Below the pieces are notes generated by a model. It saw only the letters and a program-made list of their open reading frames with translations, did not search any database and was not told the DNA's origin. Position numbers and translations under genes: made by a program. 64,000 bases of DNA from the NCBI GenBank assembly GCA_002840975.1, contig PHDN01000012.1, positions 1 through 64,000 of the forward strand, given 5' to 3'. Shown here one piece after another: positions 16,364 through 53,556 of the stretch; the first letter of the stretch is position 1; each line of letters begins with the position of its first letter. The DNA is from Bacteroidetes bacterium HGW-Bacteroidetes-16. Lineage in GTDB: Bacteria > Bacteroidota > Bacteroidia > Bacteroidales > F082.

Positions 16364-17173
16364 ATGAACCTGTCAGGAGAATTGAATTGCGTGATTACAC
16401 AGTCGATTCAAGTATCACCCATCATGAAAATCATCAAAGTAAAACCTGTTGAATGGAGTTTCCCTGCATTTACAGCCGGGCAGTTTGTAGCCCTCGGACT
16501 TCCTCCTGAAGCACCACGGTGCATCGAATCAACTGAAGAGTTTGCAGCACCCGCCACTGACAAACTAATTAAAAGAGCTTATTCCATTGCATCTTCCTCT
16601 ACTGAAAATGCAGTGGAGTTTTATGTAACACTGGTTCATTCGGGTCAACTTACCCCCAGGTTGTTCGAATTACACATTGGCGATCAGGTTTGGATGGGTA
16701 AAAAAGCAGTCGGGATGTTTACCTTGGACGAAGTTTCCCCCGAACGGAATGTGGTATTGATTGCCACCGGGACAGGTGTAGCCCCTTACATGAGCATGTT
16801 GCGTTCCAACGCATTGACCAGGAAAGGGAAAATGATGGTCATTCATGGGGCAGCTAACAGTTGGGATTTGGGTTATTCTTCTGAGCTGAAATTACTGGCA
16901 AGTCTGTTTGGTAACTTCACCTATCATCCTACCATTACAGAACCCTTGAAAGAACCATCAGGCTGGGATGGAGACACCCGGTTTATTGGAGATATTTGGG
17001 CGTCGGGAACCGTTCAGGAAAAATGGGGGTTTAAACCCTTGCCCGAAAATACTGAAATCTTTCTGTGTGGCAATCCAAGAATGATAGAGGGAATGAAAGA
17101 ATTGCTTGCCACCGATGGTTTTATCGATCACAAAAAAAACCGCCCGGGACAAATCCATGCGGAAGAGTTTTAG
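16364..17173 (+). CDS. Ferredoxin--NADP(+) reductase, Fpr type
   Basis: 269-residue cytoplasmic flavoprotein. The FAD domain carries RAYS at residues 71-74 followed by IASSS; the NADP domain carries IATGTGVAPYMSML and, near the end, LCGNPRM. The protein exchanges electrons between NADPH and ferredoxin or flavodoxin. A charged insertion before the RAYS motif (EAPRCIESTEEF region, about residues 45-68) is longer than in E. coli Fpr. It is a single-gene unit next to the cytochrome locus, but nothing in the sequence ties it to that locus directly. Confidence 0.9.
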   Translation: MNLSGELNCVITQSIQVSPIMKIIKVKPVEWSFPAFTAGQFVALGLPPEAPRCIESTEEFAAPATDKLIKRAYSIASSSTENAVEFYVTLVHSGQLTPRLFELHIGDQVWMGKKAVGMFTLDEVSPERNVVLIATGTGVAPYMSMLRSNALTRKGKMMVIHGAANSWDLGYSSELKLLASLFGNFTYHPTITEPLKEPSGWDGDTRFIGDIWASGTVQEKWGFKPLPENTEIFLCGNPRMIEGMKELLATDGFIDHKKNRPGQIHAEEF

Positions 17174-17393: not shown

Positions 17394-18089
17394 TTATCCA
17401 TTTCGCCCGATTCTTAACAGCGAATCTTTATTTAGAATTTTAAAATAATCGGAATTGGAATCCACAATGCCTTCTTCTTTCCATTCTTTTAATACCCGAA
17501 TCACACTTTCTTTGGTCAGCCCGGTAAGTTCTGCCAGATCCTGGCGCGAAAGATTCGACTTAAACTCTTGTGACTGAAATACATCTTCTGAAAGGTATAT
17601 CAACGTTTCAGCCAGTTTTCCCTGCATGTGTTTGTGAGCCAGATTGCCAATGTTTTGATAATGCCTGATGATTTTTTTATTTAGAAAAGCGATCATATCC
17701 AGAGCAAACTGACTGTTTTCTTCCAATACTTTTTTAAAGGATTCAACCTGGATAAAGCAGGCAGACGACTCCGTTAAAGCAGTCACTGTGTAATGGTGCC
17801 GGTTATCCCTTAAAAAACCGGGACCTATAATCAAGGTCATCGGTTTTACAACACTCATGATAAAACAGTCTCCCCCATGGTTTTCAATATGGATTTTAAC
17901 CAGGCCCTTTGTCAAACACATAACATGGGTAAGAGGTCCTCCTTGTTTAAGCAGTGTTTCCCCTGCACCAAACCTGATCTCAAACCTCGATTCATTTATT
18001 TTATCTAACTGCCCATCAGTTAACGACTGAAATAAGCTCAACTTTCGATTGCAATCAGCACAATTATTCGACTGGCATGTTTCTGTCAT
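17394..18089 (-). CDS. Crp/Fnr-family transcriptional regulator (copy 1)
   Basis: 231 residues: a cyclic-nucleotide-binding-like sensory domain (about 20-145), a dimerisation helix and a Crp-type helix-turn-helix (about 170-200, SRQDLAELTGLTKESVIRVL). The N terminus has three cysteines in CQSNNCADC, a spacing that could bind an Fe-S cluster as in FNR, although the motif differs from E. coli FNR. It is divergent from the six-heme cytochrome gene; a perfect FNR-type box lies between them. A paralogue sits at the other end of the cytochrome locus and shares the phrase NNRHHYT/DNRHHYT. It likely controls the locus in response to oxygen, NO or redox state; this is inferred. Confidence 0.88.
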   Translation of the reverse strand: MTETCQSNNCADCNRKLSLFQSLTDGQLDKINESRFEIRFGAGETLLKQGGPLTHVMCLTKGLVKIHIENHGGDCFIMSVVKPMTLIIGPGFLRDNRHHYTVTALTESSACFIQVESFKKVLEENSQFALDMIAFLNKKIIRHYQNIGNLAHKHMQGKLAETLIYLSEDVFQSQEFKSNLSRQDLAELTGLTKESVIRVLKEWKEEGIVDSNSDYFKILNKDSLLRIGRNG

Positions 18090-18165
18090 ATATTAATTTT
18101 ATTTCGTACATTTGTTCACTTTAGTTCACATCCATGTTGTACCACTGCAAATATCAACAAATTTA

Positions 18166-18179
18166 TTGATAAATATCAA
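18166..18179. promoter_or_regulatory. Perfect FNR-type operator in a divergent promoter region
   Basis: TTGATAAATATCAA is an exact match to the FNR/Crp-family consensus TTGAT-N4-ATCAA; the palindrome extends one more base each side (ATTGATA-AA-TATCAAT). On the minus strand TAAATTTG (18165-18158) directly abuts it, so binding would cover the likely promoter of the regulator gene. On the plus strand a near-consensus TATACTTG (18202-18209) would place the box centre about 41 bases upstream of the start point, typical of activator sites. Confidence 0.65.
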
Positions 18180-18298
18180 TCAGAAATGGATTTATTACAA
18201 TTATACTTGAATACATGTCAATCGCTCCATTTGATTAGAGAAGAACAGAATCCTTAATCTTGTGGTGCGAAATCATTCTAACTAAAATTATCATAATC

Positions 18299-19360
18299 AT
18301 GAAAAAAATCAACAACTTTTTCTTTATCGGTTCAGTAGCCTTGATGCTCATCGTCAGCGCTTCTTGTACAAAAGAGGGCCCTCAGGGGATTGCCGGTAAA
18401 GATGGCACAAACGGTACCAATGGTACCGATGGAACCGACGGAACAGCAACCTGCGTCGAATGCCACAGCAGCAATCAGGTTATTTACGCAAAGGAAAACC
18501 AATGGGCAGCATCCATGCACGCTACAGGATCAGCGTTTGAAAGAAACGAAGGTGAATGTGCTACATGTCACACAAGCCAGGGATTCCGTGGCAATCTGGA
18601 TGGCAGTTATGTTTGGACCGAAACTGGTGCAAAGATTGACAATCCAAACCCACAAAACTGTTACACATGCCACGAAATTCACCAAACCTACACCGCGGCA
18701 GACTTAGCGTTAACCGTACCATCTGATGCAGCTATTGCGCTCAGAAACACCACCGCTACCCACAATTTTGGTAAAGGCAATGTTTGCGCCAGTTGTCACC
18801 AGGGTCGTACAGTTGATCCTTTCCCTGTAGCCGGCGGAGCTGACATCACAGTTACCTCCTCACGTTATGGTGTTCACCATGGTCCTCAATCCAACACCCT
18901 TGCTGGTGTAGGTATGGGATTATTTGAAGTTGGTGATGGTCTTGTTAACTCAGCTCATGCAACGCTAATTGCTGATGCTTGTGTAAACTGTCACATGGCC
19001 GAAGCTTACGGAACACAATCAGGTGGTCACTCCATGTGGATGGGCTACGAATATCACGGAGCCACAATTCTGAATACTGCTGGTTGCGAAGTAAGTGGTT
19101 GCCATGAAGGTGAAGATGTACAGGCAATGACAGAAGAATTTCAGGCTGAAATTGCTATCTTATTGGCTGAGTTAAAAGTTAAACTGGACGCAGCCGGTAT
19201 TACTGCCGAAGGAAGCGACAATTCAGTAAACGGAACATATTCAGGACTTGTTGCCGGAGCTTGCCTAGATTACAAAGCCCTCACCGAAGACAAGAGCCTG
19301 GGTGTTCACAATCCCAAGTATGTTAAAAAATTGCTTACAAACCTGAAAGAAGCTTTATAG
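18299..19360 (+). CDS. Hexaheme c-type cytochrome lipoprotein with collagen-like stalk
   Basis: 353 residues from ATG 18299. A signal peptide with lipobox VSASC (Cys at about 22) is followed by eight Gly-X-Y triplets (residues 27-50), then heme motifs CVECH, CATCH, CYTCH, CASCH, CVNCH and one CX4CH (CEVSGCH). The C terminus (GVHNPKYVKKLL) is typical of multiheme cytochromes with a helical tail. The product would be an envelope-anchored electron carrier, possibly surface exposed, held away from the lipid anchor by the Gly-X-Y segment. It is the first gene rightward from the FNR-type box and is followed by a terminator, so later genes may need separate promoters or read-through. Confidence 0.9.
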   Translation: MKKINNFFFIGSVALMLIVSASCTKEGPQGIAGKDGTNGTNGTDGTDGTATCVECHSSNQVIYAKENQWAASMHATGSAFERNEGECATCHTSQGFRGNLDGSYVWTETGAKIDNPNPQNCYTCHEIHQTYTAADLALTVPSDAAIALRNTTATHNFGKGNVCASCHQGRTVDPFPVAGGADITVTSSRYGVHHGPQSNTLAGVGMGLFEVGDGLVNSAHATLIADACVNCHMAEAYGTQSGGHSMWMGYEYHGATILNTAGCEVSGCHEGEDVQAMTEEFQAEIAILLAELKVKLDAAGITAEGSDNSVNGTYSGLVAGACLDYKALTEDKSLGVHNPKYVKKLLTNLKEAL

Positions 19361-19445: not shown

Positions 19446-19835
19446 ATGAAACGTTACTACAATTCCTCGTTATTCGTTCTGTTGGTGGCTACTCTTTTCT
19501 TTGCTTCCTGCCAGTATGATTTTGAAGTGAAACCAGCTCCGGAGCCACCACCAGAGCCAGGTGACACCCTTAGTTTTTCAGCTGAAATAATACCCATTTT
19601 CACTGCAAAATGTGTCGCATGCCATGGGGGTAGCCAAGTTCCGGATTTAAGGGCTGACAACGCATACAACAGTATCCAAGCCATGAGCTTAGTAAACCTG
19701 GCAGTTCCCGCCGACAGTGAGATTTACACCTGGCCAAATCCAACCAATACGGCTAAACATGCCTGGAAGAAATATTCAGCTGCTGAAGCCGCAAAAGTGC
19801 TATTTTGGATTGAACAAGGAGCGTTAAACAATTAA
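19446..19835 (+). CDS. Monoheme c-type cytochrome lipoprotein
   Basis: 129 residues. Lipobox FFASC at residues 18-22, a proline-rich linker (PAPEPPPEPG), then a cytochrome-c-like domain with one heme motif CVACH near residue 60 and the preceding IIPIFTAK segment that is typical of small Bacteroidota cytochromes of the planctomycete C type. It may shuttle electrons between larger cytochromes in the periplasm. It is followed after 11 bases by the barrel gene, so the two are probably co-transcribed. Confidence 0.85.
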   Translation: MKRYYNSSLFVLLVATLFFASCQYDFEVKPAPEPPPEPGDTLSFSAEIIPIFTAKCVACHGGSQVPDLRADNAYNSIQAMSLVNLAVPADSEIYTWPNPTNTAKHAWKKYSAAEAAKVLFWIEQGALNN

Positions 19836-19846
19836 AAAACTGAACG

Positions 19847-20731
19847 ATGAATACACTCATTAAAAACACCACGATAGGCCTGCTGATGTTCCTGCTTATG
19901 GGAGGATCACTGGTGGCACAAGAAGAAACCGTTGTTGAAGACAAACCCGTTCGCTCACCTTTTGAAAGCGGAATACTAATCGACAACCAAACATCAGTAA
20001 TACCTGCGGCCAAAACACTTGAAATGCTTATTCAACATCGGTTTGGGAACTTTAATGCCAATGGCATTAAGGATTTGTATGGAATTTATGCCCCTGGGGC
20101 CAATATCCGCATTGGATTTAACTATACCCTGATCAACAACCTGATGATTGGATACGGTATTACCAAGAATAGAATGTACAGCGACTTCCAGGTAAAATAT
20201 ACTGTGCTCAAACAAACACGCTCTAACAGCATGCCGGTCTCCATTACCTTGTACGGCAATATGGCCATCGATGGCAGGAACAAAGAGGTATTTGGCCTGG
20301 ACTATAAATCCACCCACAGGTTATCCTATTTTGGGCAATTGATCGTTGGAAAAAAATTCAACGATTGGTTATCCCTTCAGGTAAACACCAGTTTTTCGCA
20401 TTACAACCTGGTTGACACCTCTTACGATCATGATGCGGTAGGCGTAGGTATTTCAGGCAGAATTAAATTCTCCCCGCAATCCTCCATTATCTTCCAGTAT
20501 GACGTTCCATTGAGAATAAAAAGTATTTCGGAGAACAGAGGATTCAAACATCCTTCCTTGCCGAACTTTGCCATTGGATATCAAGCTTCTACCGGAACCC
20601 ATGATTTTCAGGTCTACATTTCCACCGCCAGTGGAATCGTACCTCAGGACATGTACATGCGCAACTCGAACGATTTCCTGAATGGTGATTTCATGATTGG
20701 ATTTACCATCACACGACTCTGGGGTTTTTAG
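19847..20731 (+). CDS. DUF5777-type outer-membrane beta-barrel protein
   Basis: 294 residues with a signal peptide (to about LVAQE) and a beta-rich mature part of alternating hydrophobic strands. The opening PAAKTLEMLIQHRFG and the terminal FMIGFTITRLWGF fit the DUF5777 barrel family of Bacteroidota. It has no heme motif. Its position between lipoprotein cytochromes and membrane cytochromes suggests it could form a porin or sleeve through which electrons or substrates cross the outer membrane, by analogy with porin-cytochrome complexes of other phyla; that role is inferred only from context. Confidence 0.8.
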   Translation: MNTLIKNTTIGLLMFLLMGGSLVAQEETVVEDKPVRSPFESGILIDNQTSVIPAAKTLEMLIQHRFGNFNANGIKDLYGIYAPGANIRIGFNYTLINNLMIGYGITKNRMYSDFQVKYTVLKQTRSNSMPVSITLYGNMAIDGRNKEVFGLDYKSTHRLSYFGQLIVGKKFNDWLSLQVNTSFSHYNLVDTSYDHDAVGVGISGRIKFSPQSSIIFQYDVPLRIKSISENRGFKHPSLPNFAIGYQASTGTHDFQVYISTASGIVPQDMYMRNSNDFLNGDFMIGFTITRLWGF

Positions 20732-20782
20732 CAATTCTGGTTTTGGGAATGCAAGGCTAACCTTTTATTTCTTGAAAACACC

Positions 20783-20820
20783 ATTCCCTGGCAGATACCC
20801 GCAAGCATCTGTCAGGGAAT
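20783..20820 (+). repeat. Stem-loop in the leader of the heptaheme gene
   Basis: Arms ATTCCCTGGCAGAT and ATCTGTCAGGGAAT (14 bp, one G-U pair in RNA) around a 10-base loop, ending 18 bases before the ATG at 20839. There is no T-run after it. It could be an mRNA processing or stabilising hairpin between the barrel and cytochrome cistrons. Confidence 0.6.
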
Positions 20821-20838
20821 ATTAATCAACCATCAGCT

Positions 20839-21801
20839 ATGAACAGATTTGTAGCAAAATCAATTGTAATCGGTGTCATTTCATTTTGGATGATTGTATC
20901 CGCATCTGCATCCTATGCTGAAGATACCGTTGTTTTTGAAAATGCTGAATTTAACCATCAGTGTTTTAAGTGTCATGGTCAGAAAACCTACCACTATTTC
21001 AACGAAGCATCAGGTAAGGTAGTTAAAGATCGGATGAACCCCTATTTTGTGATGGATTCAATCGCTTTTTATCAAAGCAATCACAAAAGTTTTATGTGTA
21101 CTGATTGCCATTCATCTGATTACGAAAATTTTCCGCACAATGGAGAGCTTCGGATGGAACAAAAGTTCAACTGCATGGATTGCCATGGCGGTGACGACAC
21201 CTACGCACAATATCAATTTGAGAGAATAGAGGAAGAATTCCAGGCAAGTGTACATTCAACCAAACACAGCGATGAATTTACCTGTTGGATGTGTCATAAC
21301 CCACACTCTTATAAGATTAACGCGAGGAATAACGACAACATCAACAATGTAATTGTTTACGACAACAATATCTGCCTGAGTTGCCATGCCAACTTAGACA
21401 AGTACCAGTTGATTTCGGATCTGACCAACCCCAATGTTCTGATAACCCATGAATGGCTGCCCAATCAGGCCCTGCACTTTAGTAAGGTTCGCTGTATTGA
21501 GTGCCATACCGAAATCGACAAGGAGATGCTGATTGCACATAAGGTACAGGTAAAAGAAAAAGCCGTAAGACGGTGCGTTGAATGCCATTCACAGAATTCG
21601 CTGCTGATGGCTACATTGTATAAATTTGAAACAGCAGAAAAACGTAACAAACTTGGTTTTTTCAACGCGACCATTTTATCAGATCACTATATTATAGGTG
21701 CCAATCGAAATTACTATCTAAACATTGCCAGTCTCATCATCTTTGGTTTTGTCCTTTTGGGGATTACAATTCATGCCATCATCAGAATAATGACTAAATA
21801 A
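20839..21801 (+). CDS. Membrane-anchored heptaheme c-type cytochrome
   Basis: 320 residues with a signal peptide, seven CXXCH motifs (CFKCH, CTDCH, CMDCH, CWMCH, CLSCH, CIECH, CVECH) and a C-terminal membrane helix (about 295-317) that holds the heme domain on the periplasmic face of the inner membrane. One base separates its stop from the ATG of a cytochrome b gene; together they look like the two halves of a quinol-oxidising complex passing electrons from menaquinol to c hemes. The general cytochrome c3/multiheme family is clear; a specific enzyme activity is not. Confidence 0.9.
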   Translation: MNRFVAKSIVIGVISFWMIVSASASYAEDTVVFENAEFNHQCFKCHGQKTYHYFNEASGKVVKDRMNPYFVMDSIAFYQSNHKSFMCTDCHSSDYENFPHNGELRMEQKFNCMDCHGGDDTYAQYQFERIEEEFQASVHSTKHSDEFTCWMCHNPHSYKINARNNDNINNVIVYDNNICLSCHANLDKYQLISDLTNPNVLITHEWLPNQALHFSKVRCIECHTEIDKEMLIAHKVQVKEKAVRRCVECHSQNSLLMATLYKFETAEKRNKLGFFNATILSDHYIIGANRNYYLNIASLIIFGFVLLGITIHAIIRIMTK

Positions 21802-21802
21802 A

Positions 21803-22411
21803 ATGGAACAGAAACTATACCTATATCCGGTCTGGCTTAGAATTTGGCATTGGGCAAATGCAGTGCTATTTCTACTTTTGCTCTTCACAGGCTTAAGTCT
21901 CCAGTATTCATCTGTTGAATTTTCATTCATAGATTTTGATTTGGCGGTTACGATGCACAATGTATCCGGAATCGTTATTACAATTGCCTATTTTATGTTT
22001 TTGTTCGGAAATAGGTTTTCTTCCAATGGTCGGTTCTACAAAGCCAAACGAAAAGGATATATTTTGGATTTGATGGTGCAAATAAAGTATTACATATATG
22101 GAATCTTCGTACATCAGAAAACCCCTTTCCCTGTCACCGAGAATAGAAAATTCAATCCGCTTCAAAAGCTGAGTTATGTGGCCTCTATGTATTTTCTCTT
22201 ACCCATTCTTATCCTGAGTGGATTCGCCCTGATATTTCCCGAGATGATCATAAAAAATGTTTTTGGCGTTAGCGGAATTCATATTACAGGACTTGTCCAT
22301 ATTACTACAGGATTTGCACTGTCCGTTTTTCTATTTATTCATGTTTATTTCTGTACCATAGGGAAAACCCCTCTGAGTAATTTTAAAAGCATGATAAACG
22401 GATGGCATTGA
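21803..22411 (+). CDS. Cytochrome b561-type membrane subunit
   Basis: 202 residues with four hydrophobic helices. The histidines in RIWHWANA (about 17), TMHNVSG (about 51), GLVHITTGFAL (about 168) and FLFIHVYF (about 182) fit the paired heme b ligands of the formate dehydrogenase gamma/thiosulfate reductase cytochrome b family. It would oxidise menaquinol and feed the heptaheme protein encoded 1 base upstream. There is no signal for a catalytic molybdenum subunit nearby. Confidence 0.87.
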   Translation: MEQKLYLYPVWLRIWHWANAVLFLLLLFTGLSLQYSSVEFSFIDFDLAVTMHNVSGIVITIAYFMFLFGNRFSSNGRFYKAKRKGYILDLMVQIKYYIYGIFVHQKTPFPVTENRKFNPLQKLSYVASMYFLLPILILSGFALIFPEMIIKNVFGVSGIHITGLVHITTGFALSVFLFIHVYFCTIGKTPLSNFKSMINGWH

Positions 22412-22517
22412 TTTTTAAACATATAAATCTACACGAGAACTACCGTTGTCAACAAAATTTATTCACCATAGATTATTTGACATTGTAAATTAACTATTTA
22501 CCCTACATGTTTGGAAG

Positions 22518-25313
22518 ATGCAGATAACAAAATACACCCTTAATTTTATCAGGACAATAATCATTGTAGCCATCTTCTTAGCCACAAACGGCTTATTTGC
22601 CCAGTCGACCGACGATTGTCTGATGTGTCATGAAGACCACGATTTAAGCACAGAAATCAACGGCAAAAAAGTCTCCCTTTACGTGAACGCAACGACGTTA
22701 CAGAATTCGGTGCATAATCAGGTTGAATGCGCCTCTTGCCATAAAGAATCAAGTCCTGGCGAATTTCCACATGCCGATGGTGTTCAGAAAATGCCAGCGG
22801 TAAACTGCGGAAGTTGCCATAAAGGTGCGGAAATGGAGTTTACCAGAGGGATTCATGGCGTAGCCTTTAAAGCCAATGCTCCCTACGCACCTGATTGCAA
22901 GGAATGTCACGGGACTCACACCATACTGTCATCCCAGAATCCTAAATCGCGCACCTATAAAATGAATATCCCTTTTTTATGTGGAAACTGTCATAAAGAA
23001 GGTGCACCCATCGGGAGACTATACAATATTACGGTTCATAATATCGTCGAGAACTACAGTCAGGGCATACATGGCAAGGGGTTGTTCGAAAAAGGACTAC
23101 TCGTTACAGCTACTTGTAACGACTGCCATGGCAACCACCTGATATTGGCAGCCAGCGATAAGGGATCGTCGGTTGCGCCTAAACACGTTGCACAAACCTG
23201 CATGAAGTGCCACGCGAGCATCGAAAAAACTCATAAAAAGGTAATTAAAAATGAACTCTGGGAAGATCGCCCCGGTGCAGTTCCTGCCTGTACTGATTGT
23301 CACCCGCCTCATATCGTAAAAACCGAAAGGATTGAAGAAGCCTTCTCCAATAATTCATGTTTGGCATGTCATGATCAGGGCGACAAGACAATAAAGAAAC
23401 TCTTTAAGGGAGATACCATTGTAGGTATTGATGCATCCCATATAGCCAATTCGGTGCATTACAACATAAATTGCATAAAATGCCACACCGATGTAAGTTC
23501 AAAATTCGAGAGACCTTGTCAGGAACTAAAACGGGTTGATTGTTCCAATTGCCACAACGCTGTTTCTAATGTATATTTTGACAGCGGCCATGGCAAAGCG
23601 TTTTTGAATCACCGGACCGATGCACCTTATTGTACTGACTGTCACGGGACACACCAAACCAAGTCGAAGTTCGACGACACTTCACCAACTTACAGGTCGG
23701 CAATTCCCAAGCTCTGCGGGGGATGCCACAAAAAAGGCGGGCAAGCTAACCTGATGACCGAATTAAAGGAAGTAAATGCTTACAGCGATTATACAACCAG
23801 TATCCATGGAAAAGGATTGAATGAAAAGGGATTGCTGGTAAGTGCCATTTGTATCGACTGTCATACAGCACATCATGAACTGAAAGAGGCGGACAGTGCC
23901 TCATCAGTCAACCCTAGTAATATTCCTGGTACCTGTGCCAAATGCCATAAGAGTATTTACGAAGATTATATCAACAGCGATCACAGCATCAGGGACAATA
24001 CCAGCATGCTGCACTATCCAACATGTACTACCTGTCATTCGGCACATGTCATCAGTGAAATTGATCAGGATAAGTTCATGAACGAGGTAACCATACAATG
24101 TGGTTCTTGTCATCAGAAACTATCGGAAACATACAAGGAGACTTACCATGGTAAAGCCTATCAGCTTGGCGACCTGAAGGCCGCGCGATGTTCAGATTGT
24201 CATGGAGCACATAAGATTCTAAAAGTCGAGAACCCAGATTCAAAAGTGGGTTTCAAAAACATTGTAAACACATGTAAGCAATGTCATAGCAATGCAACTT
24301 TAGAATTTACAGGCTATTTAACTCACGCCACCCATAACGACAATGATGTTCTGTATTATTCATTTTGGGGGATGACCATTTTGCTGGTATCTGTTTTTGC
24401 TTTCTTTGGGCTTCACACCCTGATATGGTTGCCACAATCATTAAACCAGAGAAAAAAGAACAAACACAAACTACCGGAAGGACCTGTGAAATACTATCGG
24501 CGTTTTAATAAAAGGCAACGCTTCACACATCTACTGGTCATACTCAGTTTTCTGTTATTGGCTCTTACGGGGATGACCCTGAAATTTGCCCACATGGAAT
24601 GGGCCACATTTGTAGCCAATTTGCTGGGGGGCGTTAAAGCAGCCGGGAACATTCACCGATTTGCGGCGGTAGTCACATTTGGATATTTTACCTTCCATTT
24701 ATTGACCTTGTTTCAGTTAAGGGCCAAGGCAGGTGTAGGTGTGAAAGAATTTCTCTTCGGTAAAAACTCATTGATGTTCAGCAAACAGGATATTAAAGAT
24801 TTAGGCGCTTCCATCAAGTGGTTTTTCGGATTGGGCCCACGTCCCGAATATGGCCGTTGGACCTACTGGGAGAAATTTGATTACATGGCCGTGTTCTGGG
24901 GGGTAGCTGTCATTGGATTCTCTGGTCTCATCTTGTGGTTTCCTGAATTCTTTACCCTATTCTTCCCCGGATGGGTCATCAACGTGGCACAAATAATTCA
25001 CAGTGATGAGGCTTTGCTGGCCACCGGGTTTATCTTTACCATTCACTTTTTCAATACCCACCTGCGCCCTGAATCGTTTCCCATGGATACGGTTATTTTC
25101 ACCGGCCACGTACCTTTGGAAGAGTATATAAAAGACAGACCCCGTGAATACCAGGAACTGGTTGAGTCTGGCAAACTGGATTCAGTAGTGGTAACAAAAG
25201 AATTCTCCAAACCCTGGTTGAGAACAATAAGGTTCTTTGGTTTTCTTTTCTTGTCACTTGGCGTGATCATGGTTGTGTTAATTGTGTATTCATTATTGAT
25301 GGGTGTTTATTAA
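22518..25313 (+). CDS. 19-heme c-type cytochrome fused to cytochrome b domain
   Basis: 931 residues. After a signal peptide (to about LFAQS), residues 30-605 hold 19 CXXCH motifs, from CLMCH to CKQCH. Residues about 111-240 and 356-485 are two copies of a module with the order HG..CxxCHG.H, CGxCHK, IHGKGL..KGLLV, CxDCH, CxKCH; a third partial copy lies near 545-600. Residues about 611-931 form a b-type cytochrome with helices containing RFTHLLV, GNIHRFAAVV and FIFTIHFFNTH as candidate heme b ligands. The layout (many c hemes plus a diheme b domain) resembles Geobacter CbcL, an inner-membrane quinol oxidase for extracellular electron transfer, but with about twice the c hemes. It is preceded by a 106-base gap with no clear terminator. 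Confidence 0.9.
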   Translation: MQITKYTLNFIRTIIIVAIFLATNGLFAQSTDDCLMCHEDHDLSTEINGKKVSLYVNATTLQNSVHNQVECASCHKESSPGEFPHADGVQKMPAVNCGSCHKGAEMEFTRGIHGVAFKANAPYAPDCKECHGTHTILSSQNPKSRTYKMNIPFLCGNCHKEGAPIGRLYNITVHNIVENYSQGIHGKGLFEKGLLVTATCNDCHGNHLILAASDKGSSVAPKHVAQTCMKCHASIEKTHKKVIKNELWEDRPGAVPACTDCHPPHIVKTERIEEAFSNNSCLACHDQGDKTIKKLFKGDTIVGIDASHIANSVHYNINCIKCHTDVSSKFERPCQELKRVDCSNCHNAVSNVYFDSGHGKAFLNHRTDAPYCTDCHGTHQTKSKFDDTSPTYRSAIPKLCGGCHKKGGQANLMTELKEVNAYSDYTTSIHGKGLNEKGLLVSAICIDCHTAHHELKEADSASSVNPSNIPGTCAKCHKSIYEDYINSDHSIRDNTSMLHYPTCTTCHSAHVISEIDQDKFMNEVTIQCGSCHQKLSETYKETYHGKAYQLGDLKAARCSDCHGAHKILKVENPDSKVGFKNIVNTCKQCHSNATLEFTGYLTHATHNDNDVLYYSFWGMTILLVSVFAFFGLHTLIWLPQSLNQRKKNKHKLPEGPVKYYRRFNKRQRFTHLLVILSFLLLALTGMTLKFAHMEWATFVANLLGGVKAAGNIHRFAAVVTFGYFTFHLLTLFQLRAKAGVGVKEFLFGKNSLMFSKQDIKDLGASIKWFFGLGPRPEYGRWTYWEKFDYMAVFWGVAVIGFSGLILWFPEFFTLFFPGWVINVAQIIHSDEALLATGFIFTIHFFNTHLRPESFPMDTVIFTGHVPLEEYIKDRPREYQELVESGKLDSVVVTKEFSKPWLRTIRFFGFLFLSLGVIMVVLIVYSLLMGVY

Positions 25314-25561
25314 TGCGAATCCGGAAGGTGGTAAACAGGATAACCATACATTATCGCTTTTGGAACGAAAGTTGCATCCTATAAAATATCATGGGTAAAA
25401 AAAAAGTTCAAACGGTATTATTACTAATTTTGGGAAAATATCACTTACATTAATTGTATCAATGATCAAACTTTATCAAAAAAACCAGATAAACGATAAT
25501 TTCAACTACCATAAAATAACAACTTTTGAATCTATTAATTATTAATCAAATTATTACAACT

Positions 25562-26050
25562 ATGTTAATTAAAAGTTTAATGATCGGATGTTTCCTGTTT
25601 TTCTTAGGAAGCTCAGCTTTGACGGCTCAGGATTTTGAATACGTCGGAGCAAAAAAATGCAAAATGTGCCACAATAAGCCTGCAACAGGTGACCAGTACA
25701 AAAAATGGGCTGACTCAAAACATGCCCATGCCATGGAGAGCTTAAAAGGTGATGAAGCAAAAGACCCTAAATGTTTAAAATGCCACTCAACTGCGGGGAG
25801 TGTTAAATCTGATTTAATCGTTACTCTTACTGTAGAAGAAGGCGTTTCTTGCGAATCATGCCATGGAGGAGGAAGCAAATATTTTCCAAATGCCATCATG
25901 AAAGACAAAGAAAAAGCAAAAGCTAACGGGTTGAAAATACCAGACGAAAAAACCTGTATTGCATGCCATAATGCTGAAAGCCCCCATTTTAAAGGATTTA
26001 ACTACAAAGAGGCCAAGGAAAAAATTGCTCATCCAACAATTAAAATTTAG
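25562..26050 (+). CDS. Tetraheme cytochrome c554-like protein
   Basis: 162 residues from ATG 25562; the frame also runs 12 codons upstream but the signal peptide starts here. After the signal peptide (SALTAQ), heme motifs CKMCH, CLKCH, CESCH and CIACH are arranged as in the cytochrome c554 family, with KKWADSKHAHAM as a characteristic stretch after the first heme. It is probably a soluble periplasmic shuttle between inner-membrane quinol oxidases and outer-membrane partners. The 248-base upstream gap contains a TAATTTTG (25425-25432) and no other gene. Confidence 0.9.
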   Translation: MLIKSLMIGCFLFFLGSSALTAQDFEYVGAKKCKMCHNKPATGDQYKKWADSKHAHAMESLKGDEAKDPKCLKCHSTAGSVKSDLIVTLTVEEGVSCESCHGGGSKYFPNAIMKDKEKAKANGLKIPDEKTCIACHNAESPHFKGFNYKEAKEKIAHPTIKI

Positions 26051-26296: not shown

Positions 26297-27796
26297 ATGA
26301 AACTACCTCGTTCATTTTACAGTTGGACAACCGTTGCCGGGGCCGCTTTAGCCTTTATCAGCTTTTTAACAATTGTTTTTCTCATGTCGGTATCCCTTAT
26401 TTTCGATCATGGGGACAGCTACTCCGGTTTAATTACTTACATTATTCTGCCTGTTTTTTTAGTGATTGGTCTGTTGATGATTCCACTTGGAGCCATCCAA
26501 AAGCTAAGAAAAAACAGGGGTAAAATGGATGAAACAGTTCCTAAATTGCCCATTGTTAACCTAAACGATCCGGCACAACGGACTGCCTTGCTTATATTCA
26601 TTTTGGGAAGTACTGTTTTTCTATTATTAAGTTCGGTTGGAAGTTACGAAGCCTTTCACTATACCGAATCCAACGAATTTTGCGGTACCTTATGCCACTC
26701 GGTCATGGAACCGGAATATGTCACCTATCACGGATCGGCACATGCCCGTGTAAATTGTGTAGAATGCCACGTAGGTAGCGGGGCAGATTGGTATGTTCGT
26801 TCCAAATTATCGGGTTTGTATCAGGTATATTCGGTACTCACCAATTCATTTCCAACCCCCATCGAAACGCCTGTTCACAGCCTTCGTCCGGCAAGGGAGA
26901 CCTGTGAAAAATGTCATTGGCCCGAGAAATTTTACGATCGAAAGTTTATTACCAACCGGCATTACCTTGCCAATGAAGAAAACAGCGAATGGGACATCAG
27001 CCTCTTGATGAAAACGGGGCCCAAGATTAGTGCACAAGGTCTTCATGAAGGAATCCACTGGCACATCAACCCGGAGGTTAAAATGGAATACCTGCCTTTG
27101 TCGCGAAAACGCGATTCCATCGGGTTAGTCATTTATACCAACTTAAAGACGGGTAAAGTAACTACCTATCGGGATGGAGATGTTGATTCTCAAGTACCTG
27201 AAAATTATACCGACCAGCTTCGTGAAATGGATTGTTTGGATTGTCATAACAGGCCTTCACACAATTACAAAAGCCCTTCTGCCTTTTTTGATATGGCGAT
27301 GCGGACCGGTAAAATTTCCAACACACTCCCAAATATTAAACTGACTTCAATGGGTATCCTTCAAACAGAATATTCAACAAAGGACAGTGCCATGGCCGGC
27401 ATAAAACAGAAAGTCCTGGAATATTACGAAGAAAACTACCCTGAAGTATTTTCTACTGATGGAGAAAAAATTAATCAGGCGATAGCAGCTCTTCAGGAGG
27501 GATATTCAAACAATATCTTTCCTTTCATGAAAGCGCAATGGACACAATATCCCAATTACATCGGCCACATTGAATCGAATGGTTGCTTCCGCTGCCACAA
27601 CAATTCATTTACCAGCGAAGAAGGCCGGGTAATCACCAACGATTGCGATTTATGCCATGATATCAAGGCTCAGGGTCCACCCAACAATTTAATGTATGCC
27701 ACCGGCGATAGCAGTTTGGTATTTAATCATCCCGAAGATATCGGTGACGAGTGGATGGTAACAAAATGTTTTGAATGCCACGAAGCACTCTATTAA
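26297..27796 (+). CDS. ImcH-like NapC/NirT heptaheme cytochrome
   Basis: 499 residues from ATG 26297. Three N-terminal membrane helices (about 10-32, 48-68, 98-118) precede a NapC/NirT-type periplasmic domain. Heme motifs: one CX3CH (CGTLCH) followed by CVECH, CEKCH, CLDCH, CFRCH, CDLCH and CFECH, seven in total. Size, three helices and seven hemes agree with Geobacter ImcH, an inner-membrane menaquinol oxidase needed for high-potential extracellular acceptors. The CX3CH spacing at the first heme, at the position used for quinol interaction in NapC/NrfH proteins, is unusual. It ends the rightward cytochrome series with a strong terminator. Confidence 0.88.
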   Translation: MKLPRSFYSWTTVAGAALAFISFLTIVFLMSVSLIFDHGDSYSGLITYIILPVFLVIGLLMIPLGAIQKLRKNRGKMDETVPKLPIVNLNDPAQRTALLIFILGSTVFLLLSSVGSYEAFHYTESNEFCGTLCHSVMEPEYVTYHGSAHARVNCVECHVGSGADWYVRSKLSGLYQVYSVLTNSFPTPIETPVHSLRPARETCEKCHWPEKFYDRKFITNRHYLANEENSEWDISLLMKTGPKISAQGLHEGIHWHINPEVKMEYLPLSRKRDSIGLVIYTNLKTGKVTTYRDGDVDSQVPENYTDQLREMDCLDCHNRPSHNYKSPSAFFDMAMRTGKISNTLPNIKLTSMGILQTEYSTKDSAMAGIKQKVLEYYEENYPEVFSTDGEKINQAIAALQEGYSNNIFPFMKAQWTQYPNYIGHIESNGCFRCHNNSFTSEEGRVITNDCDLCHDIKAQGPPNNLMYATGDSSLVFNHPEDIGDEWMVTKCFECHEALY

Positions 27797-27826: not shown

Positions 27827-27853
27827 AGGATGACTTTCGGGTCATCCTTTTTT
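27827..27853 (+). terminator. Terminator ending the cytochrome locus
   Basis: AGGATGAC-TTTCGG-GTCATCC followed by six T. It overlaps the 3' end and stop codon of the convergent Crp/Fnr gene (stop at 27842-27844), so the terminator is embedded in that coding sequence. Confidence 0.88.
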
Positions 27854-28534
27854 GCTTATATCCTGTAATAAACCACTGTTCTGGATCTGAAAAGATTTTT
27901 CATCAAAACAAATAATCTTCTCCTGGCAAAATTCTTTAATAATCTTAGCGGCACTTTCTTTTGACATGCTTGTCATTTCGGCAATCTCAGGTGTCGACAG
28001 ATCCATCTCAAAGGTGTTGGATTTGTATATGTCGTTTGACAAATAAAGTAGTATGTCGGCAATTCGTCCACGACTGTTTTTTTGCGAAAGCCTCAACAAC
28101 TTATCCATATAAAATATTTGCCGGGTTTGCGTATGCCTGAGGTACTCCTCCCAAAATTGCTGATTCGACCTCAAAATGTCGATAAATACAAGACTATCAA
28201 TCAAACATATATGCGATTCACGTAACGCCGTCATGGTATAGTGATGCCTGTTGTTTACAAATAAGCCCGCCCCCGAAACAAAATCACCGGGGACAATGAG
28301 TCTGAAAATAACATTTCGACCATCGCCTTCGAGGTACATTTTCGCCAGACCATGAGCGAATGAAATGACGTGTGTACACGCAGTTCCCTGCTTTATGATG
28401 GTTTCGCCAGGATGATAGGTCACCTCCACCCTGCATTCTTCAATTTTGAAGAGCTCCTCACTCGACAGCAATTTGAATATGGGTGATTGCAACATACATC
28501 CAACGCATTGATATTGACTTGTGAAATCAGACAT
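27842..28534 (-). CDS. Crp/Fnr-family transcriptional regulator (copy 2)
   Basis: 230 residues with the same plan as the regulator at 17394-18089: N-terminal cysteines (CVGC at about 10-13), cyclic-nucleotide-like domain, and a C-terminal helix-turn-helix (about 168-198, TPEIAEMTSMSKESAAKIIK). The shared NNRHHYTMTAL segment marks it as a paralogue. It converges on the cytochrome genes. Upstream sequence holds TTGT-N6-ACAA (28561-28574) and a longer imperfect palindrome (28611-28644), both plausible family operators. Different recognition helices suggest the two regulators read different sites or signals. Confidence 0.88.
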   Translation of the reverse strand: MSDFTSQYQCVGCMLQSPIFKLLSSEELFKIEECRVEVTYHPGETIIKQGTACTHVISFAHGLAKMYLEGDGRNVIFRLIVPGDFVSGAGLFVNNRHHYTMTALRESHICLIDSLVFIDILRSNQQFWEEYLRHTQTRQIFYMDKLLRLSQKNSRGRIADILLYLSNDIYKSNTFEMDLSTPEIAEMTSMSKESAAKIIKEFCQEKIICFDEKSFQIQNSGLLQDISKKG

Positions 28535-53488: not shown

Positions 53489-53556
53489 AACACTTTTTTT
53501 CTTTGTTTATCATTCAATTAATTCACAAGATACTTGATTTATATCAAATTAATAAT

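Follow-up and report, generated by a model that had tools for sequence, protein, structure and literature searches.

A conserved operator with phased half-sites between an FNR-like regulator gene and a multiheme cytochrome operon in Bacteroidales

The divergent locus and its conserved box

The stretch of DNA analysed here (the window, 64,000 nucleotides of Bacteroidetes bacterium HGW-Bacteroidetes-16) contains a Crp/Fnr-superfamily regulator gene and, facing away from it, an operon of multiheme cytochromes. The regulator, a protein of 231 amino acids, is encoded on the minus strand at 17394..18089, and the operon begins on the plus strand with the gene of a 5-heme cytochrome that has a lipoprotein-like start and a collagen-like stretch (18299..19360). 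The rest of the operon (19446..26050, plus strand) encodes a 1-heme protein, a DUF5777 barrel, a 7-heme protein, a cytochrome b561, a 19-heme/cytochrome b561 fusion and a 4-heme cytochrome, and a 6-heme NapC/NrfH/TorC-like cytochrome (26297..27796, plus strand) belongs to the same operon in relatives. The DUF5777 beta-barrel (19847-20731, plus strand) is thereby placed inside a conserved cytochrome operon with lipoprotein-like multiheme proteins, a set that resembles an outer-membrane electron conduit; a literature search on DUF5777 returned nothing. Two further genes flank this arrangement: a ferredoxin/flavodoxin-NADP reductase-like gene (16364-17173, plus strand), which is also near the regulator in the loci L058, L059, L060 and L062, and a second Crp/Fnr regulator gene (27842-28534, minus strand) at the distal end of the cytochromes, which has no box upstream and is kept in the same genus.

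The gap between the regulator gene and the operon holds the full palindrome TTGATAAATATCAA (box 1, 18166-18179), and the preliminary description was right to report an exact canonical FNR site there. Raw counts in the genome (3.94 Mb, 46 contigs) are on their own weak evidence for a function of this box: the exact consensus TTGATNNNNATCAA is present in 22 copies (the reversed-pattern control gives 3), almost all of them intragenic. The window itself has a second perfect site, TTGATTTATATCAA at 53534-53547, ahead of the gene of a protein with a T9SS-type sorting domain. This position is outside the stretch that can be aligned in three genomes of the same genus, none of which showed a perfect site nearby; since it is not seen in same-genus relatives, this copy was treated as chance, which it probably is. 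One might read the box at 18166 in the same way, as a chance palindrome in AT-rich intergenic DNA, given a perfect match elsewhere in the window without sign of function and the scatter of the exact consensus inside genes, but the conservation of the box at homologous promoters, together with its rigid phasing with the promoter and with half-sites (both described below), refutes this reading and leaves it practically no probability.

Conservation was assessed among Bacteroidales relatives of the first cytochrome gene, with regulator loci taken from 61 genomes, and a box was defined as TGAY-N4-RTCA plus at least one outer T/A. Of the 60 loci, 43 have an equivalent box between -250 and -60 of the homologous first cytochrome gene, where dinucleotide shuffles predict 0.9. 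The loci are related by descent and are not 60 independent events, but they span many families, and apart from the box their intergenic DNA is scrambled. The palindrome TTGAT-N4-ATCAA is therefore kept at orthologous promoters, as for an FNR-type operator, which sets the box at 18166 above chance. The 43 sites give the consensus TTGATATATATCAA, in which the four central bases are restricted to ATAT-like letters.

Presence of the box is predicted by an adjacent regulator: 32 of 34 loci with a regulator directly upstream of the cytochrome have it, compared with 9 of 20 without one (Fisher p=9e-5). In nine loci the box stands ahead of the cytochrome though no regulator adjoins; a second cytochrome transcription unit in L062 and L070 has a box of its own, and regulator and cytochrome each have a separate box in L060/L061. 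Furthermore, 13 loci have the regulator and the cytochrome in the same direction; the box is found before the cytochrome in these, and 11 of the 13 regulators are without a box of their own. Because of these three kinds of loci (no adjacent regulator, own boxes of second units, codirectional layouts), the box can be assigned first to the cytochrome promoter. Taken together, the comparisons support the view that the 18166 box is a genuine Crp/Fnr operator, which would serve the divergent pair and is widely conserved in Bacteroidales.

Promoter positions and the half-site array

The -7 element of Bacteroidetes promoters, TAnnTTTG, spans -12 to -5 (PMC9723704), and predicted starts were placed from candidate -7 elements by the offset in the same paper. 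The exact motif gave little signal near the box, and a signal emerged once the search reached the start codon. With the looser pattern TANN[ATC]TTG, 17 of the 43 aligned promoters have a match at 89-91 bp from the box start, whereas other 3-bp bins average 0.6. In the window this element is TAATCTTG (18255..18262, plus strand), at a position conserved across relatives, with a predicted start near 18267 and a candidate -33 element TTTG (18230..18233, plus strand) 21 bp before it that is not kept in the relative L059. The centre of box 1 would thus be near -94.5 of the cytochrome start.

The preliminary description had placed this centre near -41, the classical activator position, and this placement cannot be upheld. 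More specifically, it took box 1 for a single class II FNR site driving TATACTTG (18202-18209), with a regulator promoter TAAATTTG abutting the box. Both motifs do lie where they were said to lie (TAAATTTG at 18165-18158 of the minus strand), and they agree with TAnnTTTG in 5/6 and 6/6 positions, respectively; a site at -41.5 is found in 19 of 23 E. coli promoters of known start that are directly activated by FNR (PMC3688515). However, neither motif is conserved at its distance in relatives, and both were rejected as promoter elements; TATACTTG moreover overlaps a half-site at 18208-18221. Other -7 elements are conserved instead (cytochrome side, 89-91 bp; regulator side, 23-24 bp), which makes the -41 arrangement very unlikely.

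On the regulator side the conserved element is GATATTTG, which 11 of 30 loci have at 23-24 bp from the box; counted otherwise, it lies 20-21 bp after the TTG of box 1. In the window it occupies 18148..18155 on the minus strand, with a predicted start near 18143, and this fixed distance would put the TTGA of box 1 at the -33 position. Box 1 would therefore fill the -33/spacer region of the putative regulator promoter with its centre at about -29.5, a repressing position. By established promoter logic, an operator that lies over a core promoter hinders polymerase. GATATTTG also coincides with one of the half-sites described below (box 0), so that its conservation could reflect box 0 rather than a promoter element; the promoter reading is favoured because the eight bases of GATATTTG are retained, in contrast to the drifting other half of box 0. 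As an alternative to autorepression, the array might mainly activate the cytochromes, with the regulator gene either not autorepressed or itself activated. The codirectional loci point this way, since 11 of 13 regulators there are without a box and autoregulation would thus be dispensable, but where the two genes diverge, the main box lies over the regulator's conserved putative core promoter, and we consider this alternative unlikely.

When the 43 promoters are aligned on the box, extra half-sites (RTCA or TGAY) are concentrated at -21/22, +21/22 and +43/44 and nearly absent from other offsets; each favoured offset is occupied in about 10-19 sequences, where the background is below 1. At least one extra RTCA stands at an array offset in 32 of the 43 promoters (shuffled flanks: mean 2.2, maximum 8). 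A spacing of 21-22 bp corresponds to two helical turns. The preliminary description, which read the box as a lone site, had missed this phased array. In the window, box 1 (centre at about -94.5 for the cytochrome and -29.5 for the regulator promoter, as predicted) is accompanied by box 0, the half-site ACTGCAAATATCAA (18144..18157), 22 bp away on the regulator side and overlapping the regulator -7 element; by the box 2 position TGGATTTATTACAA (18187..18200), at +21 and centred at about -73.5 for the cytochrome promoter; and by box 3, the half-site TGAATACATGTCAA (18208..18221), at +42, centred at about -52.5 and identical in same-genus relatives. Box 2 is very degenerate here and is a recognisable half-site in many relatives. 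With boxes 0 and 3 being single half-sites, the array is weaker in the window than in many relatives, and the case for it depends mainly on those relatives, box 2 being barely recognisable in the window itself.

The FNR-like regulator and its known relatives

The regulator scores above the cut-offs of the Pfam models cNMP_binding, HTH_Crp_2 and Crp, and has the Crp/Fnr fold. Its predicted structure (mean pLDDT 85.9) matches the FNR of A. fischeri and the Porphyromonas gingivalis structure 2gau, and the comparison with holo-FNR (5e44) gives Z 25.0 and rmsd 2.4. The closest solved relative, both in sequence and in the VIA-align comparison (Z 26.5, rmsd 1.6, 24% identity), is 2gau, a Crp/Fnr-family protein, though its sequence alignment with the regulator begins after the CxxC region. 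A regulator of 97% identity is present in the Bacteroidetes MAG GWF2_41_31.

Cysteines 10, 13 and 111 align with C20, C23 and C122 of FNR and are invariant in 20 aligned regulators, nearly all of which come from cytochrome-linked loci. Of the four FNR cysteines (C20, C23, C29, C122), the equivalent of C29 is absent; C58, conserved in at least 90% of the regulators in set A1, is a possible substitute for the missing fourth ligand. Within the E209-x-x-S212-R213 pattern of the recognition helix, the equivalent of E209 is invariant in the same 20 sequences and that of R213 nearly so, while S212 is mostly replaced by I, and V208 by K. Residues of this helix fit the specificity rules for positions 180/181 (PMC1274295). 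The NCBIfam model for Fnr (NF008365) gives 52.8 bits, compared with a cut-off of 228. The preliminary label 'FNR' therefore holds for the half-site, three of the four cluster cysteines, E209 and R213, and with the equivalents of C29 and S212 missing and the Fnr model below its cut-off, the protein is better called FNR-like than FNR proper. In three loci (L036, L069, L108) all three aligned cysteines are lost while the box is kept. Such joint loss is what would be expected if the cysteines form one unit; it also means that iron-sulphur sensing is not universal in the group, and in these loci the sensor has probably been swapped for another.

Comparison with E. coli FNR brings out both likeness and difference. 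The operator TTGATnnnnATCAA has the same half-site TTGAT/ATCAA as found here, E209 and R213 are kept, the ligands C20, C23 and C122 are aligned and conserved, and control of anaerobic electron transport would be a further common trait. In contrast, C29 is absent here, S212 is mostly I and V208 is K; the spacer, N4 in the E. coli site, is constrained to ATAT-like bases; and single sites at -41.5 are replaced by phased arrays at about -52 to -94. Indeed, 89% of the peaks of the direct E. coli FNR regulon have one site (PMC3688515). DNR of denitrifying pseudomonads is likewise a Crp/Fnr protein with the TTGATnnnnATCAA motif that activates respiratory genes, and HcpR/HcpR2 of Bacteroides and clostridia are likewise Crp/Fnr regulators that adjoin their target and have a small local regulon (PMC1274295). 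DNR, NnrR and HcpR are without the FNR-type cysteine motif (PMC1274295), whereas three cysteines are conserved in the protein studied here, and its targets, unlike those of DNR, would be multiheme cytochromes. HcpR2 differs further in its motif (GTAACnnnnGTTAC, against TTGAY here) and in having Pro in place of E181, a glutamate kept here at position 194.

Nine matches to the regulator are present in the genome, all with related recognition helices, and a different Crp/Fnr paralogue (e.g. the one at 27842-28534 or one in the contig 16 cluster described below) could conceivably bind the box, or several could compete for it. We regard this as improbable: the box tracks the presence of the adjacent regulator, cytochrome-linked regulators group together on the tree (7 label changes, compared with 20.1 expected from shuffles), and in the 27842 paralogue K replaces a near-invariant arginine of the recognition helix.

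Further targets and the proposed switch

The preliminary description had suggested looking for the same box elsewhere in the genome, and this yielded two candidate targets but no large regulon. Specifically, genome-wide scans with the exact and the AT-spacer patterns gave mostly intragenic matches in near-control numbers, and a global FNR regulon was rejected on this ground. The best second target is an operon on contig 13 (L081:2821) with DUF2027-like and ResB/CcsA-like cytochrome c biogenesis genes (names that are our own reading of the sequences), which has the box ATGATATTTATCAG at -141. All three genomes examined within the genus have this box, as do about 9 of 30 family members (strong in three), and the cytochrome-maturation operon is a probable target. 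A weaker candidate is a molybdopterin oxidoreductase operon on contig 16 (L077, 22000-41900), around which four Crp/Fnr-type genes are found and which has GTGATATATATCAG upstream of the oxidoreductase. With one clear local target and the probable maturation operon, the regulator looks like a local rather than a global one, unlike E. coli FNR.

The reading that best accommodates these observations, and that we consider probably right, is that the phased array is bound by the neighbouring FNR-like regulator (17394-18089), activating the cytochromes and repressing the regulator gene. In this respect the activation and autorepression proposed in the preliminary description are retained. In such a model, box 1 would be the strongest site of a helically phased array, with dimers bound every 21-22 bp along the same face of the helix ahead of the cytochrome promoter (centres near -94, -73 and -52), and the bound dimers would recruit or stabilise RNA polymerase there. 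Occupation of the main site would at the same time fill the -33/spacer region of the regulator promoter (centre near -29), turning the regulator gene off. The signal is likely to be oxygen or the redox state, presumably perceived through a cysteine-ligated iron-sulphur cluster, and the multiheme electron-transfer operon would thus be switched on under anoxic conditions. The sequences themselves show the conserved site with its phasing, the conserved promoter positions, the link with the regulator and the conserved cysteines; from these we infer that this regulator binds, activates the cytochromes and represses its own gene, as well as the cluster and the signal.

A broader and more tentative possibility, which we would put at somewhat below even, is that this is a lineage-wide Bacteroidales module, in which an FNR-like protein, its three conserved FNR ligand cysteines completed by some other fourth ligand, occupies a full site and several half-sites, phased by two turns, in a cooperative manner. 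If the half-sites are filled only via contacts with the main-site dimer, the module may act as an all-or-none switch for an extracellular-type cytochrome conduit.

A literature search for a binding site linking Bacteroidetes FNR and multiheme cytochromes found nothing, and the literature searched has essentially no description of regulators dedicated to multiheme cytochrome operons in uncultured Bacteroidales. The two-turn array of half-sites contrasts with E. coli FNR biology, where a single -41.5 site predominates, and raises the question of whether the Bacteroidota polymerase, with its TAnnTTTG promoters, is recruited from positions between -52 and -94. With an operator, promoter positions and a candidate sensor now given, the conditions under which these bacteria deploy their cytochromes become testable.
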